Below, one piece after another: positions 10,835 to 62,783 of a stretch of DNA of 64,000 nt. The notes under the pieces were generated by a model. The model had not been told where the DNA came from. It saw only the letters and a list, made by a program, of their open reading frames with translations, and did no database searches. The stretch comes from a bacterium (GTDB taxonomy: Bacteria; Patescibacteriota; Gracilibacteria; UBA4473), in assembly GCA_009995455.1 (NCBI GenBank), contig JAACPJ010000002.1, forward strand, positions 62,001 to 126,000. Direction: 5' to 3'. The first letter of the stretch is position 1; the number at the start of each line of letters is the position of its first letter. The translations under genes and the position numbers were made by a program.

Positions 10835-12175
10835 ATGTCAGAGTTAAATGTTTCACAAATTGCGAAAGAAGACGCCCTCGTCAAAGCTTTAGTCACGGAT
10901 CTTGCTGGCGGATTTAAAGAAATTATTTTTCCGTCTAAACATTTACCTGAACTGATTAAACCAGGGATCGCTTATGACGGTTCAAGCTTTGCTGGAATTA
11001 ATCACATTAATGCGAGTGACGCAATTTTAGCCGGGGTTGAAGCGACCTTAGTGGCCGTTCCAGAAAGCATTGCTGAAAGCGAGAAACCCGAATACTGGAT
11101 TATTTGCAATATTCTAAATACCAAGCATGAACCTCACCCAAATTGTGGACGCGGCAAGCTGATTGAAATGCAAGAGGCCCTGGGTAAAACCTGGGATGGG
11201 GGGAAGCTTTTCATGGGCGCTGAACCAGAAGCTTTTTTTGTGGCTCAAGCCGATAAAGAAGCGGTCGGAAGCGCAGGCGGCGGCAACGGGAATTACTTTA
11301 ATCCTAAAGACCCAAAGAGTTTCATTATCGCAGAAATTTCAAACACACTTGATGATATGGAGTATCAAATTGAGCGCGCTCACACAGAAGTGGGTGATGA
11401 CCAATTTGAAATCAATTGGCGTTTTGATACCGCGGAAAGAACAGCTGATAAAATTCAAATTTTTAAACTCGTCGCTCATAAAATCGCTCGAAATTATGAT
11501 TTAGACGTTACTTTTTTACCGAAACCTTACCCTTCAAGAAATGGTTCTGGGATGCACTGCCATTTATCAGTGCAAAATGAATCTAAAAATTTATTTTTTG
11601 ATGACTCGGCTACTGATCAAAAACAATTTTCAAACACGTCACTACAGTTTTTAACGGGCATATTAAGCCATGCTCGTTCTATATGTGCTATCGCAAACTC
11701 TGCTGAAGTTTCATACGCTCGGCTCGTGCCAGGTTTTGAAGCGCCTTGTATTGTGGCGATTGGTGAAGGGAATCGAAGCGCGGCTTGTCGAATTCCAGCG
11801 ATTCCAAATGCAGAGTTGAAAAAATACGCCATGCGAACCGAAATGCGTTTCCCCGATCCTTTATGTAATCCGTACTTGCTGGCGGCTAGTTTTATTGCCG
11901 CTGGAATTATTGGCATTGAAGAAGAAATTGATTTTATAGGTTTTACCGAAGAGAACCTTTATGAGTATGGCGCCAAAGAAGTCGTAGAAAAAGGCTACAC
12001 TCTACTGCCACGTAATTTATGGGAGGCCTACCAAGCCTTTAGTTCCGACACAGCGTTAAAACAAAAATTAGGAGCATCAATTACTAATTCGTATGAAGAT
12101 TTACTGCTCGATGAAATTGATGGCTGCCAAGCGTTTGCAAATCCAGAGTCTGTCAGAAGGCACTATTTAGATTAA
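10835..12175 (+). CDS. glnA: Glutamine synthetase (GSI-like)
   Basis: 446 residues, a normal GSI size. Motifs in order: beta-grasp end YDGSS; MGAEPEAFF (metal-binding Glu); GDDQFEI (metal-binding Glu); NGSGMHCHLS (His for ATP/metal and glutamate); NSAEVSYARLVPGFEAP; NRSAACRIP (Arg for substrate); and RFPDPLCNPYL. The enzyme condenses glutamate and ammonia with ATP. C-terminally the NLYEYG segment keeps a Tyr near the adenylylation loop position, but no adenylyltransferase is visible here. The leader has no Shine-Dalgarno and ends in an A/T/C-rich stretch before ATG. Glutamine synthetase is not a constant part of reduced CPR genomes; its divergent pairing with a TrmB regulator suggests metabolite-controlled expression. 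Confidence 0.93.
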   Translation: MSELNVSQIAKEDALVKALVTDLAGGFKEIIFPSKHLPELIKPGIAYDGSSFAGINHINASDAILAGVEATLVAVPESIAESEKPEYWIICNILNTKHEPHPNCGRGKLIEMQEALGKTWDGGKLFMGAEPEAFFVAQADKEAVGSAGGGNGNYFNPKDPKSFIIAEISNTLDDMEYQIERAHTEVGDDQFEINWRFDTAERTADKIQIFKLVAHKIARNYDLDVTFLPKPYPSRNGSGMHCHLSVQNESKNLFFDDSATDQKQFSNTSLQFLTGILSHARSICAIANSAEVSYARLVPGFEAPCIVAIGEGNRSAACRIPAIPNAELKKYAMRTEMRFPDPLCNPYLLAASFIAAGIIGIEEEIDFIGFTEENLYEYGAKEVVEKGYTLLPRNLWEAYQAFSSDTALKQKLGASITNSYEDLLLDEIDGCQAFANPESVRRHYLD

Positions 12176-12256: not shown

Positions 12257-12285
12257 TTGAATTTTGGCTAAAACTATGATACAAT
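12257..12285 (+). promoter_or_regulatory. Promoter of the candidate structured RNA
   Basis: TTGAAT, 17-base spacer, TACAAT; predicted transcription start near 12292. No protein gene begins in the next 400 bases. Confidence 0.65.
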
Positions 12286-12291
12286 AGCCTA

Positions 12292-12646
12292 CTCTTTGAA
12301 ATTTCGTGGTGCTTTACCAAACCCCCCGGGAGAAATCTCGACTTAGCCCTTGTGTCCCCATTTTTGGACTCCACACAAGCGCCGCCGAGTCGAGGTTTCT
12401 CCCGGCCCTTCCTCATCTAAAACAGAAGAGGTTGAGCTATTAACTGCCTTGCGGCGAAATTTAGACCTCATCCCTTCAAATCTCACAAAAGTCGAACAAA
12501 AAACAAAACAAATACAAAGAGCGTTCTACCCGCTTTAAAAAAATCGGTAGGTGGAAGTAGGCATCACGGAGAACCAAACTTTCAAAAACCCAAATCTTTG
12601 CCCCTCTGTCTTTTAACACGGGAAAAATAAAGATTCGGGTTTTTGT
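12292..12646 (+). ncRNA. Candidate structured non-coding RNA, family not identified
   Basis: About 350 bases with a promoter at 12257-12285 and a terminator-like end at 12583-12645. Ends pair with each other: TTTGAAA (12295-12301) with TTTCAAA (12580-12586), and CGTGGTGC (12305-12312) with GCATCACG (12561-12568). Inside is a long hairpin at 12326-12405, whose outer arms run from CCGGGAGAAA to TTTCTCCCGG and whose inner arms are CTTGTGT/ACACAAG. A second local helix (GAGG 12428-12431 with CCTC) encloses GCC-TTGC-GGC. No open frame of consequence fits. I looked for RNase P, tmRNA, SRP and 6S signatures and did not find convincing ones. Confidence 0.6.
12583..12645 (+). terminator. Terminator-like hairpin with a large loop
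   Basis: Arms CAAAAACCCAAATCTTT (12583-12599) and AAAGATTCGGGTTTTTG (12629-12645) pair with one mismatch around a 29-base loop and end in a T-rich tract. It probably ends the RNA above. Confidence 0.55.
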
Positions 12647-12668: not shown

Positions 12669-12697
12669 TTGTAAATGAAGTGATTTTCTGGTATAAT
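12669..12697 (+). promoter_or_regulatory. Promoter of virB4, near-leaderless
   Basis: TTGTAA, 17-base spacer, TATAAT, with TGG before the -10. Only nine bases separate the -10 from the ATG at 12707, so the transcript should begin within a few bases of the start codon. Confidence 0.75.
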
Positions 12698-12706
12698 CTT
12701 TTGAAT

Positions 12707-14968
12707 ATGACGAGTCAAAACAACCCACCTTCGGTTCAAGGCAGTACCAATGCGAAAATTTCGCAAAACGGTACCGGCACTGGTGTGGCAACGGTTCCAC
12801 CGCAAGTGACGCCCACGGGCAGTTTGCAACCGGTGAGTGATCGAACGGGGGCTAAAACTCTTACTAATCAAGAAGTAGTGGTAAGTCTTGAAAGCCTGCA
12901 GGCCAATCAAGCGCCCAACTCAAACACGGCACCAGTGGACGTCACAAATTCGGTTAATCAAACCGAGCCAAACGTGAGTGTACGGGTAACGCCAGAAAAT
13001 ACTGATGATGAAAAAACGGGTATTCTGGGGAGTTTCAAAAATAAATGGCAGCACCACATTGATAAAAACAAACAACACGCTCAGGCCCGTAAAAATTTAG
13101 AAAAAGATGGAAAGCTCGGGGAAAACGATGCCATTACTAAGGCCACTGATCCGATTGAAGAATTATTTGAAAATTATGATCCTAAGAAAGATCGGAAAAA
13201 ACTAACCCCTGAATTACGAAGAAAAATTATTGCGGCCGAAAAATTTTATCAAGAAGGAACCGTTAACGTTAAAGACTTAATCGCTCCGAGTTCTTTTGAA
13301 ATTAGTCCTAGAAATTTAAGACTTAATAATCTGCATGTGCGCAGTTACTACGTGTACAATTATCCGCGTTATTTAGAAACCAATTGGTTAAATCAACTGA
13401 TTAATTTTGATGCAACCTTTGATTTGTCATTGTTTGTATACCCAACCGATTCGGCAAGAATGATGCGAATTTTACGAAAAAAAGTAACGCAAATGCGAGC
13501 CAGTGCGCACATGAAAGCCAGCAAAGGGATTACCAATGATACAGCTCTTGATACAGCTCTAGAAGATGCCGAACAATTAAGAATTGATCTGCAACGAGGT
13601 AAAGAACGATTTTTCCAAGTAGGCGTTTATTTTAGTGTTTACGCTGAAACAAGTGAAAAACTCGATTTAATTACCAAACAACTCGAAACTATTTTAGGCG
13701 GACTTTTAGTGTTAACGCGGCCAGCTGAATTTCAAACCGAACGCGGTTTTAGTTCAACGCTTCCACAATGTACCGATGATTTAGATATTGTTCGTAATAT
13801 GAACACCGGTCCTCTGTCGACGACTTTTCCGTTTGTTTCGTCTTCTTTAACTTCAAATGAAGGGATTTTATACGGCCTGAATCGGCACAACAATTCACTG
13901 ATTATTTTTGACCGCTTTAAACTAGAAAATGCGAACTCGGTTATTTTTGCCAAATCTGGGGCGGGTAAATCTTATACCGTTAAACTGGAAGTACTGCGTT
14001 CGTTAATGATGAACACGGATGTGATTATTCTCGATCCAGAGAAAGAATACGAGACCTTAACTCATACGATTGGGGGTTCTTATATAAATATTTCACTCAA
14101 TTCACCACACCGGATTAATCCTTTTGATCTACCAAAAGCCTTAGATCCAGAAACCGATAACACGGCTTCATTATTACGCGAAAGCGTGATTACCTTGAGT
14201 GGTTTAATGAACTTGATGCTGGGGAAACTGACGCCAGAAGAATCCAGTTTAATGGATAAAGCTTTGTACCAAACCTACGCCATCAAAGGGATTACGGCCG
14301 AACTACAAGATCCAACCGCATACCAAATGCCGACCATGATTGATCTGCACAATGTGCTGCTTTCAATGCAAGGCGCTAAAAGTATGGCGATGAGACTCGA
14401 AAAATATACCACTGGAACTTTTGCTGGACTCTTCAGCCAACAAACCAATGTTGATTTAAGTTCTGGTTTACTGTGTTTTGGAATCCGCGATTTAGAAGAC
14501 CAACTGCGTCCGATTTCAATGCATATATTACTGAACTTTATTTGGAACCGAGTCCGTTCGGAAATGAAACGCCGAATGCTGGTGATAGATGAGGCCTGGA
14601 ATGTGGTTCAACATGAAGACTCAGGAAGGTTTCTGCATAATCTCTGTAAACGAGCTCGTAAATACTATCTTGGAATTACGACGATTACCCAAGATGTGGA
14701 AGATTTCATGCATTCTCCTTGGGGAAAACCAATTATTACCAATAGTTCCATGCAGGTATTGCTAAAACAAGCGCCCTCCGCGATGGAACTTTTGCAACCG
14801 GTTTTTAATCTGACCGAACAAGAGAAATATTTACTGCTCAATTCAAATGTGGGGCAAGGGTTATTCTTTGCGGGAAACCAACACGTAGCCATTCAAATTA
14901 TTGCGAGTTATGGGGAGGACAAAATTGTGACGACTAATCCACAGGAATTACTTGATCAGCAGAAATAG
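12707..14968 (+). CDS. virB4: VirB4/TraC-type conjugative ATPase
   Basis: 753 residues from MTSQNN. A start nine codons earlier would lie upstream of the -10 box, so it is unlikely. The first ~120 residues are low in complexity. A VirB4 N-terminal domain follows (residues ~165-400). The ATPase core has Walker A AKSGAGKSYT near residue 415, ILDPEKEYE after it, and Walker B RRMLVIDEAW near residue 625; TTITQDVEDF follows. VirB4 proteins energise assembly and substrate transfer in type IV secretion systems and work at the inner membrane with VirB6, here represented at 2300-4324. No relaxase, VirD4 or pilin gene is visible in the window, so mobilisation of DNA is not implied. Confidence 0.9.
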   Translation: MTSQNNPPSVQGSTNAKISQNGTGTGVATVPPQVTPTGSLQPVSDRTGAKTLTNQEVVVSLESLQANQAPNSNTAPVDVTNSVNQTEPNVSVRVTPENTDDEKTGILGSFKNKWQHHIDKNKQHAQARKNLEKDGKLGENDAITKATDPIEELFENYDPKKDRKKLTPELRRKIIAAEKFYQEGTVNVKDLIAPSSFEISPRNLRLNNLHVRSYYVYNYPRYLETNWLNQLINFDATFDLSLFVYPTDSARMMRILRKKVTQMRASAHMKASKGITNDTALDTALEDAEQLRIDLQRGKERFFQVGVYFSVYAETSEKLDLITKQLETILGGLLVLTRPAEFQTERGFSSTLPQCTDDLDIVRNMNTGPLSTTFPFVSSSLTSNEGILYGLNRHNNSLIIFDRFKLENANSVIFAKSGAGKSYTVKLEVLRSLMMNTDVIILDPEKEYETLTHTIGGSYINISLNSPHRINPFDLPKALDPETDNTASLLRESVITLSGLMNLMLGKLTPEESSLMDKALYQTYAIKGITAELQDPTAYQMPTMIDLHNVLLSMQGAKSMAMRLEKYTTGTFAGLFSQQTNVDLSSGLLCFGIRDLEDQLRPISMHILLNFIWNRVRSEMKRRMLVIDEAWNVVQHEDSGRFLHNLCKRARKYYLGITTITQDVEDFMHSPWGKPIITNSSMQVLLKQAPSAMELLQPVFNLTEQEKYLLLNSNVGQGLFFAGNQHVAIQIIASYGEDKIVTTNPQELLDQQK

Positions 14969-61967: not shown

Positions 61968-62783
61968 ATGAACTTCCGACCTCTCCTCATTCTTTCACTC
62001 TTAGTTCTTCCTTCAATAAGTGCTCTAAGCGCGCAGGAATCGTGCATTCAAATCATTCAACCAGCCGTGAGTCCAAATGGCGTATGCCAAGAGTTTGCGA
62101 ACCCTTGTATTGTTCCAAACGATTGGAAATCAGTTCCTAGCTGTGACCTAATAGGAACTTCTGAAAGCCAAAAAACAACTCTTGAAAACAGAATGGATGA
62201 TCGTATTGCTAAGATGCGGGCCTACTGGGATAAGAAGAAAGCCGCACAAGAAGCGGAAGAAAAAAAAGTCACCAGTACAAATTTTAACCGGATCGGATCT
62301 GGAAGCTTTACCCGTCAAGCGTCAGCCCCACGGCAAGCCACCAGTACGGCGCCTTCTACCGTTGGTATTAGAGCCTTTACGGAGAAAGATTACAGTTCTG
62401 ATATTGCCGAACGATACAGCCAACGAGGCGGTTATGAACGTGAAGGTGACACGACGAGTGAAGAACGTCAAGCACGACGCGCATATACACCACCACGAAT
62501 TAGTAGTTCAGACGCCGTTCGTGAAGGAAATCTAAATACAACGGTTAACTGGAATGTAATGTCTCGTCAGTTTACAACGAAGAAAAGTTACGGACCAAAT
62601 CCTTATACCGTTCGATCTCAATATCTAGCGGATCAAAAAGCTAAAAGAGACGCTTCAAATCAAGAAATTGATGTATACGAAAGAATGATGAGTCGTTCTC
62701 GCGTTTACCGAGGCGAAAGAATGGACGGGAATTTAGATGGCTCAAGTTTACTTGAAAAAGGCTTAATTCCGGGTCAAGAGTAG
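61968..62783 (+). CDS. Secreted Cys-containing protein of unknown family
   Basis: 271 residues. The signal peptide ends near ALSAQE (~24). Four Cys in the first ~45 mature residues suggest a small disulfide-bonded domain (SCIQII, GVCQEF, NPCIVP, PSCDLI). A Kazal- or knottin-like fold is possible but unproven. The rest is hydrophilic, Arg/Ser-rich and probably unstructured. It is 20 bases after the Fn3 gene and ends before a clear terminator. Confidence 0.7.
   Translation: MNFRPLLILSLLVLPSISALSAQESCIQIIQPAVSPNGVCQEFANPCIVPNDWKSVPSCDLIGTSESQKTTLENRMDDRIAKMRAYWDKKKAAQEAEEKKVTSTNFNRIGSGSFTRQASAPRQATSTAPSTVGIRAFTEKDYSSDIAERYSQRGGYEREGDTTSEERQARRAYTPPRISSSDAVREGNLNTTVNWNVMSRQFTTKKSYGPNPYTVRSQYLADQKAKRDASNQEIDVYERMMSRSRVYRGERMDGNLDGSSLLEKGLIPGQE

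Follow-up and report, generated by a model that had tools for sequence, protein, structure and literature searches.

A structured RNA, apparently of a new family, with a conserved pseudoknot and a doubly complementary strand in the Gracilibacteria

Between a glutamine synthetase gene and virB4, a Gracilibacteria contig (GenBank assembly GCA_009995455.1, contig JAACPJ010000002.1) carries some 350 bases without an evident gene, which a preliminary description had read as a possible new structured RNA with its own promoter, end-to-end pairing, an 80-base internal hairpin and a terminator. This raises the question of whether the segment is an RNA in its own right and, if so, whether it belongs to any known family or answers to the gene behind it. 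The analysis took as its window the 64,000 nucleotides from position 62,001 to 126,000 of the contig, and the features discussed below are collected in Table 1. The segment folds at -112.5 kcal/mol (z -6.45), a stability equalled by none of 100 shuffles, and its minus strand folds with a z of -3.42. G.U outnumbers A.C by 13 to 3 among the 504 tabulated pair cells, which points to the plus strand as the RNA. The MFE structure contains the P1 helix, the 80-nt hairpin P2 and the 3' terminal hairpin with its closing U5; the last was not reported by a simple terminator scan, probably because its loop exceeds the length that the scan allows. Promoter-like sites precede both the segment and virB4, as had been proposed, and are weak evidence on their own, shuffled sequence being expected to yield about 1.2 of them in the same scan. 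In most of 17 members of the family described below, the equivalent position holds a -10-like box and a YTCTTT-type start. The absence of a protein gene is likewise borne out, since no conserved ORF was found across the relatives of the RNA, and the translated stretches common to close pairs are spread over many frames and both strands, as nucleotide similarity rather than a gene would produce. That a structured RNA exists at this locus seems to us scarcely open to doubt.

Table 1. Features of the RNA locus and its surroundings (window coordinates).
Feature	Position	Strand	Basis or remarks
Upstream neighbour, glutamine synthetase gene	10835-12175		Pfam
Promoter-like site TTGAAT-17-TACAAT	12257-12285	+	Promoter scan
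Non-coding RNA gene	12292-12646	+	5' end inferred from -10 box
P1, 5' strand	12302-12314	+	Pairs with 12559-12571; MFE; p=0.005 for the window member
P2, long hairpin (outer 5' strand a, ~12326-12343)	12326-12405	+	MFE; a-type strands in relatives
Strand b, complementary to a (in P2) and to c	12398-12412	+	Pairing versus shuffles; class-wide b:c
Hairpin P3 remnant (CUUCCUC..GAG of relatives), divergent in the window	12411-12431	+	Alignment
A-rich linker (AAACAAAAAC-type in f1 and f18 members)	12490-12518	+	Alignment
H-type pseudoknot	12519-12551	+	S1 12519-12523/12531-12535; S2 12525-12530/12546-12551; A-rich third loop 12536-12545
Strand c, right after the pseudoknot	12553-12572	+	12553-12557 and 12560-12562 pair with b; overlaps P1 3' strand 12559-12571
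3' terminal hairpin, ends in U5, intrinsic-terminator-like	12584-12644	+	CCC-CUCU..GGG-AAAAA; most relatives CAC-CUCU..GUG-AAAAA
Separate virB4 promoter-like site TTGTAA-17-TATAAT	12669-12697	+	Promoter scan
Downstream neighbour, VirB4/TraG-type ATPase gene (outside the RNA)	12707-14968	+	Pfam

No known family accounts for this RNA. An Rfam scan of the window returned nothing at gathering score except two tRNAs elsewhere in it, the permissive matches inside the locus lie far below threshold, and an Rfam 15 scan of 38 sources from five families (the window, 12 loci of its own family, here termed f1, 13 of family f18 and 12 of f32, f4 and f23) yielded tRNAs only. The RNase P RNA type A model (RF00010) does not match the locus, and the RNase P RNA of the same genome lies elsewhere (G000:C13:213927-214299); neither a tmRNA model match (RF00023) nor a tRNA-like end was found at the locus, and the genome's tmRNA falls outside the window (G000:C9:187573-187999). 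The 6S RNA model (RF00013) matches neither the window nor 37 homologous loci. Both bacterial SRP RNA models (RF00169 and RF01854) are silent at the locus and in all 20 f1 genomes, a silence that proves little because the same models also miss some control genomes. Since SRP RNA is thus unaccounted for in f1, and since the candidate is usually single-copy and widespread in its class, it might be argued that the locus encodes a universal RNA, such as SRP or 6S RNA, that has diverged in this lineage beyond the reach of the Rfam models. Nevertheless, SRP RNA carries a GGAA/AGCA motif in helix 8, which was not seen on reading the sequences, and 6S RNA is a long bulged hairpin without a pseudoknot, unlike the candidate. 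RNase P RNA and tmRNA, moreover, are located elsewhere in all 20 f1 genomes at E<=0.001 (over the cut-off in 15 and 19 of them, respectively), and the lack of an Rfam match extends to all 38 sources, so that we regard a divergent universal RNA as improbable.

A mobile palindromic element (MITE, REP or transposon end) might also fold well through the accident of its inverted repeats, and nested inverted repeats of such length can indeed form element ends. A DNA similarity search covering 60 relatives, however, recovered the locus itself and pieces of at most 41 nt, with no full relative outside its own genome and a single copy within it. A single locus per genome is also the rule across the class, and the compensatory changes reported below, together with promoter-like and terminator-like signals of its own, reduce the probability of such an element to almost nil.

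The relatives of the RNA were sought in the 20 genomes of f1 with R1, a covariance model of the middle part of the RNA built from this family, which recovers the held-out members L020, L009 and L018. The RNA is present in 16 of these genomes, 15 of them detected by R1 at E<1e-3 and the remaining one (G008) through a divergent member upstream of virB4 (L013) that scores 17 bits with R1 and is among the seed members of R2, a model of the 3' hairpin. An R1 match in G008 that lies within apparent coding sequence (L065) was left out of the count, and the search found no RNA in G006 and G015. Contigs break inside virB4 in the two genomes of the window's own genus (G001 and G002), and the contigs of L008, L024 and L027 end within virB4, leaving no upstream sequence. 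The members share a common order that runs from the -10-like box and the YTCTTT-type start through a long hairpin, GCCTTCCTC..GAGAAAGAC around a small hairpin, the A-rich linker and the pseudoknot to a 3' hairpin with a CACCUCU..GUGAAAAA core, although some of them lack single elements of this plan.

In 13 of the 20 f1 genomes, the window and 12 relatives, the RNA lies immediately upstream of virB4 and ends in a terminator-like hairpin, as might be expected of a cis-acting, riboswitch-like leader or attenuator whose terminator controls read-through into that gene. Several observations speak against such a role. The virB4 gene has its own promoter-like site past the hairpin, the RNA lies away from virB4 in G003 and G007 and is separated from it by one gene in G005, no such RNA was recognised upstream of virB4 at 29 loci of other families, and in other families the RNA detected by R3, the f18 model introduced below, sits between gmk and ssb. 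Hence, the RNA was not found to occupy a fixed place in the 5' leader of any one gene and no neighbour is constant, with ATPase and virB4 here and gmk and ssb in two other families, and the leader hypothesis appears very improbable. The preliminary description was thus well founded in proposing an independent RNA rather than a leader. Its placement of the RNA between glutamine synthetase and virB4 holds for the window, but the glutamine synthetase side is not conserved: neither this gene nor the TrmB-type regulator that lies further upstream in the window, together with a cation-transport P-type ATPase, adjoins the RNA in any f1 relative tested. The same P-type ATPase does flank the RNA in five f1 relatives (G005, G010, G012, G013 and G019), so that the order ATPase-RNA-virB4 looks ancestral in f1.

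The conservation of pairing among relatives provides the main argument for the structure. For the 3' hairpin, alignment A5 (15 members) places 96.2% of 209 cells in pairs, a figure biased towards this structure because the alignment was fitted to it, against at most 52.6% when the strands are slid by one to three columns. Double changes occur in 10 of its 14 pairs, with 63 cells altered on both sides, and the inner CAC:GUG alternates with CCC:GGG among members. The R2 model scores six held-out members at 44.8-50.2 bits and the window, also held out, at only 25.5 bits. The loop of this hairpin reads CCCCUCU in the window (12601-12607) and CACCUCU in most relatives, while the CACCUCU hairpin is missing from most f32 members read. 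The anti-Shine-Dalgarno end of 16S rRNA is CACCUCC, and the resemblance makes a contact of the loop with mRNA or the ribosome possible.

The H-type pseudoknot, absent from the preliminary description, is likewise conserved. In alignment A6, made by MAFFT alone from eight f1 members with similar loop length, all cells are paired (100%; at most 42% when slid) and 8 of 11 pairs are doubly changed. Stem S1 is 98.7% paired over 15 f1 members, in which a count by hand finds all S2 pairs and 74 of 75 S1 pairs formed; the exception among the 16 f1 members is L020, in which S1 is missing and which is not in the hand table. A blind pseudoknot scan detects the element in 14 of 17 members (16 from f1 and one from f18) and in 53 of 850 shuffles, and the f18 members, analysed independently, have 96.2% of their cells paired and 6 of 9 pairs doubly changed. 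At several f18 loci (L136, L137 and L143 among them) the 5' strand of S1, AGAACGG, is repeated right after S2 (AGAACGGUAGGG), giving the 3' strand of S1 two possible partners. The evidence for P1 is weaker, with 8 of 17 members at p<=0.05 in a test of the longest run of pairs and 3 of 17 at p<0.05 in a duplex-energy test. A pairing between leader and P3 (GUUCUUU/AAAGAC), picked out by eye, was dropped as inconsistent.

These results agree for the most part with the preliminary description. The claim of a new structured RNA is supported by the lack of an Rfam match and by pairing conserved in relatives, with compensatory changes in the 3' hairpin and the pseudoknot; the 80-base hairpin is present in the MFE structure and the terminator corresponds to the conserved 3' hairpin, whereas the end-to-end pairing stands as a helix of the MFE structure with moderate comparative support. 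The best conserved elements are the pseudoknot, the 3' hairpin and the pairing of strands b and c considered below.

The distribution of the RNA was then followed through the class, in 353 genomes. At E<=1e-4, R1 matches 13 genomes of f1 and a single genome of another family, G286 (f18), whose RNA (E 8.5e-6) has the same element order and the CACCUCU hairpin. Used as a DNA query, the G286 locus matches 21 of 30 f18 genomes, best in the A-rich and pseudoknot part and in the 3' hairpin, and the f18 RNAs measure about 500-690 nt as cut by script (excluding L149, which was miscut). R3, a covariance model built from f18 only, matches 71 of the 353 genomes at E<=0.01; under the stricter limit of E<=1e-4, 52 genomes remain, with one match each and from 12 families besides f1. 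Twenty-five of its loci were read (13 of f18, nine of f32, two of f4 and one of f23), the other eight families being assigned by score alone, and the matches in f14 at E 1e-4 to 1e-2 being candidates. In whole f1 genomes R3 finds nothing at E<=0.01. Applied to the 16 f1 loci, it scores best in the window, at 12491-12558 (28.1 bits, E 5e-4), and its match coincides with the RNA at 14 loci, with none in L016, an ambiguous result in L064 and a placement in L020 that is not the best match. Conversely, R1 gives modest scores at many loci within and outside f18, where its matches coincide with the pseudoknot region. R2 transfers poorly beyond f1, and its matches in five other families (E 0.005-0.05) proved on reading to be unlike this RNA. 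A search of public contigs with the f1 pattern gave six matches, four in Candidatus Gracilibacteria, one in a contig labelled only 'bacterium' and one, in a Spirochaetaceae contig (L131), that lies inside apparent coding sequence and is attributed to chance; the exact c-box pattern was not found in viral contigs. In the window, an A-rich linker is followed by an H-type pseudoknot and then by c, complementary to b, the succession by which the family is recognised, and the RNAs of the different families are very probably homologous across the class.

The examples from f18 and f32 place the RNA gene between gmk (guanylate kinase) and ssb, oriented divergently to one of them and convergently to the other; Pfam identifies gmk at five loci (L146, L149, L181, L188 and L192) and ssb at three (L146, L181 and L188). 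Parts of the G286 RNA (L080, query 75-124 and 494-547) recur with 80-96% identity at several other places of that genome, which looks as though a dispersed repeat had been inserted into variable loops of the RNA. The virB4 frames of other-family loci (L103-L107 and L109) contain 2 to 33 in-frame TGA in several families, which would fit a decoding of TGA as an amino acid in these lineages.

Strand b stands out because it is complementary to two partners. It reads CUCYCUACUUUUCG in most members of other families, and in all 26 tabulated members (L149 and L013 left out, members of the L059 type with no clear single c kept) it can pair with both a and c, 6-11 of its 14-16 bases being used twice. 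The b:c helix (b around CCUUCC) beats shuffles in 13 of 17 members. Tested by strand at p<0.05, c pairs better than shuffles in 13 of 15 f1 and 12 of 12 f18 members, and a does so in 7 of 15 and 12 of 12, respectively. For 24 members of f32, f4, f23 and f18, with strands picked by hand (L188, L190 and L080 included, L189 excluded for its irregular b), 187 of 192 b:c cells are paired, compared with 96-111 when slid, and C-G to U-A changes separate f18 from f32. A C/U difference in b between the sister species L015 and L016 is matched by a G/A difference at the facing position in both a and c. Beside b at f18 loci such as L137 and L143 lies a hairpin, GGCAG-CCAAC-CUGCC, whose apparent covariation is strong, and a conserved downstream GUUGG in f18 could kiss the CCAAC loop of this hairpin.

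From these comparisons we hold b:c to be a putative core helix, and an exchange between a:b and b:c is plausible but unproven; the chances that the alternative pairing of b is functional seem to us about even. Only slightly less probable is that the two pairings form no switch at all: function may belong to only one of them, the other arising because a resembles c, or they may be partial helices that exist side by side. In nested folding, which ignores pseudoknot stacking, a is the main partner of b in 24 of 25 members, L190 being the single one in which c prevails, and a spontaneous switch is therefore not predicted. The RNA of L183 begins at b, without a, which would make b:c the core helix, and L189 has no clear a, so that a switch cannot be universal. 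In f18, b and c are largely invariant and little covariation is visible, and in the MFE structure of the window P2 and a short P5 (b:c) occur together. The absence of a switch is harder to reconcile with the fact that both partners beat shuffles in all 12 f18 members and with the concerted change of a, b and c that separates L015 from L016.

If the exchange does take place, P2 (a:b) would fold first, during transcription, and a docking domain would be made up of the A-rich linker and the pseudoknot, including the A-rich third loop of the latter. Once c has been transcribed, it may capture b as P5, closing the pseudoknot domain and freeing a, with the state presumably selected by the binding of a protein or ligand. 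Likely points of contact with protein or mRNA would be the single-stranded A-rich linkers and, in the 3' hairpin, the CU-rich loop.

Promoter-like and terminator-like signals, conserved pairing, the pseudoknot, kinship across the class, about one locus per genome and the lack of a constant target gene lead us to favour, with some reserve, a new family of structured RNAs across the Gracilibacteria that are free-standing and act in trans. Loci of this RNA were read in five families of the class, to which model scores add eight further ones, and its occurrence usually once per genome in many families of a single class makes it probably a shared cellular RNA. A role as a global regulator, or within a stable RNP as its RNA component, is a tentative proposal. 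Distinctly more speculative, and in our view unlikely, is a class-wide and probably essential RNA machine, an RNP core that passes b between two conserved partners and perhaps replaces functions of 6S or SRP RNA, for which standard models give no match in this lineage. None of the Rfam families corresponds to the candidate, even if orphan structured bacterial RNAs are a kind already known. An RNA kept across many families without a known relative is a candidate for core machinery, and its retention in tiny, mostly uncultivated genomes suggests importance. It offers a concrete candidate for RNA functions yet to be assigned in this branch of the Candidate Phyla Radiation, and the family can be tested directly with its core elements, its loci and three covariance-model seeds.

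A description of this RNA was not found in the literature covered, which excludes most subscription journals, and its closest analogies lie with systems of other kinds. RNase P RNA and tmRNA are single-copy, free-standing and pseudoknotted RNAs closed by a long-range helix, a plan like that of the candidate, but both are located elsewhere in the same genome and their models find no match here. Riboswitches that combine an H-type pseudoknot with a terminator resemble it in the alternative pairing of one strand and in the terminator-like hairpin; the candidate, however, has no constant downstream gene, and its hairpin closes a free-standing transcript. The raiA motif RNA occurs in other phyla and differs from the candidate, which has no Rfam match, in size and helix plan. 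This RNA, also termed ModT, is likewise described as a conserved structured bacterial non-coding RNA with a complex tertiary structure (PMC11706538). In a similar vein, the ornate large RNAs OLE, ROOL and GOLLD are described as large, structured bacterial RNAs restricted to certain lineages (PMC12286853). The candidate differs from them in its lack of an Rfam match, in a smaller core (~300 nt in f1), in its free-standing position between housekeeping genes and in a b strand with two partners.
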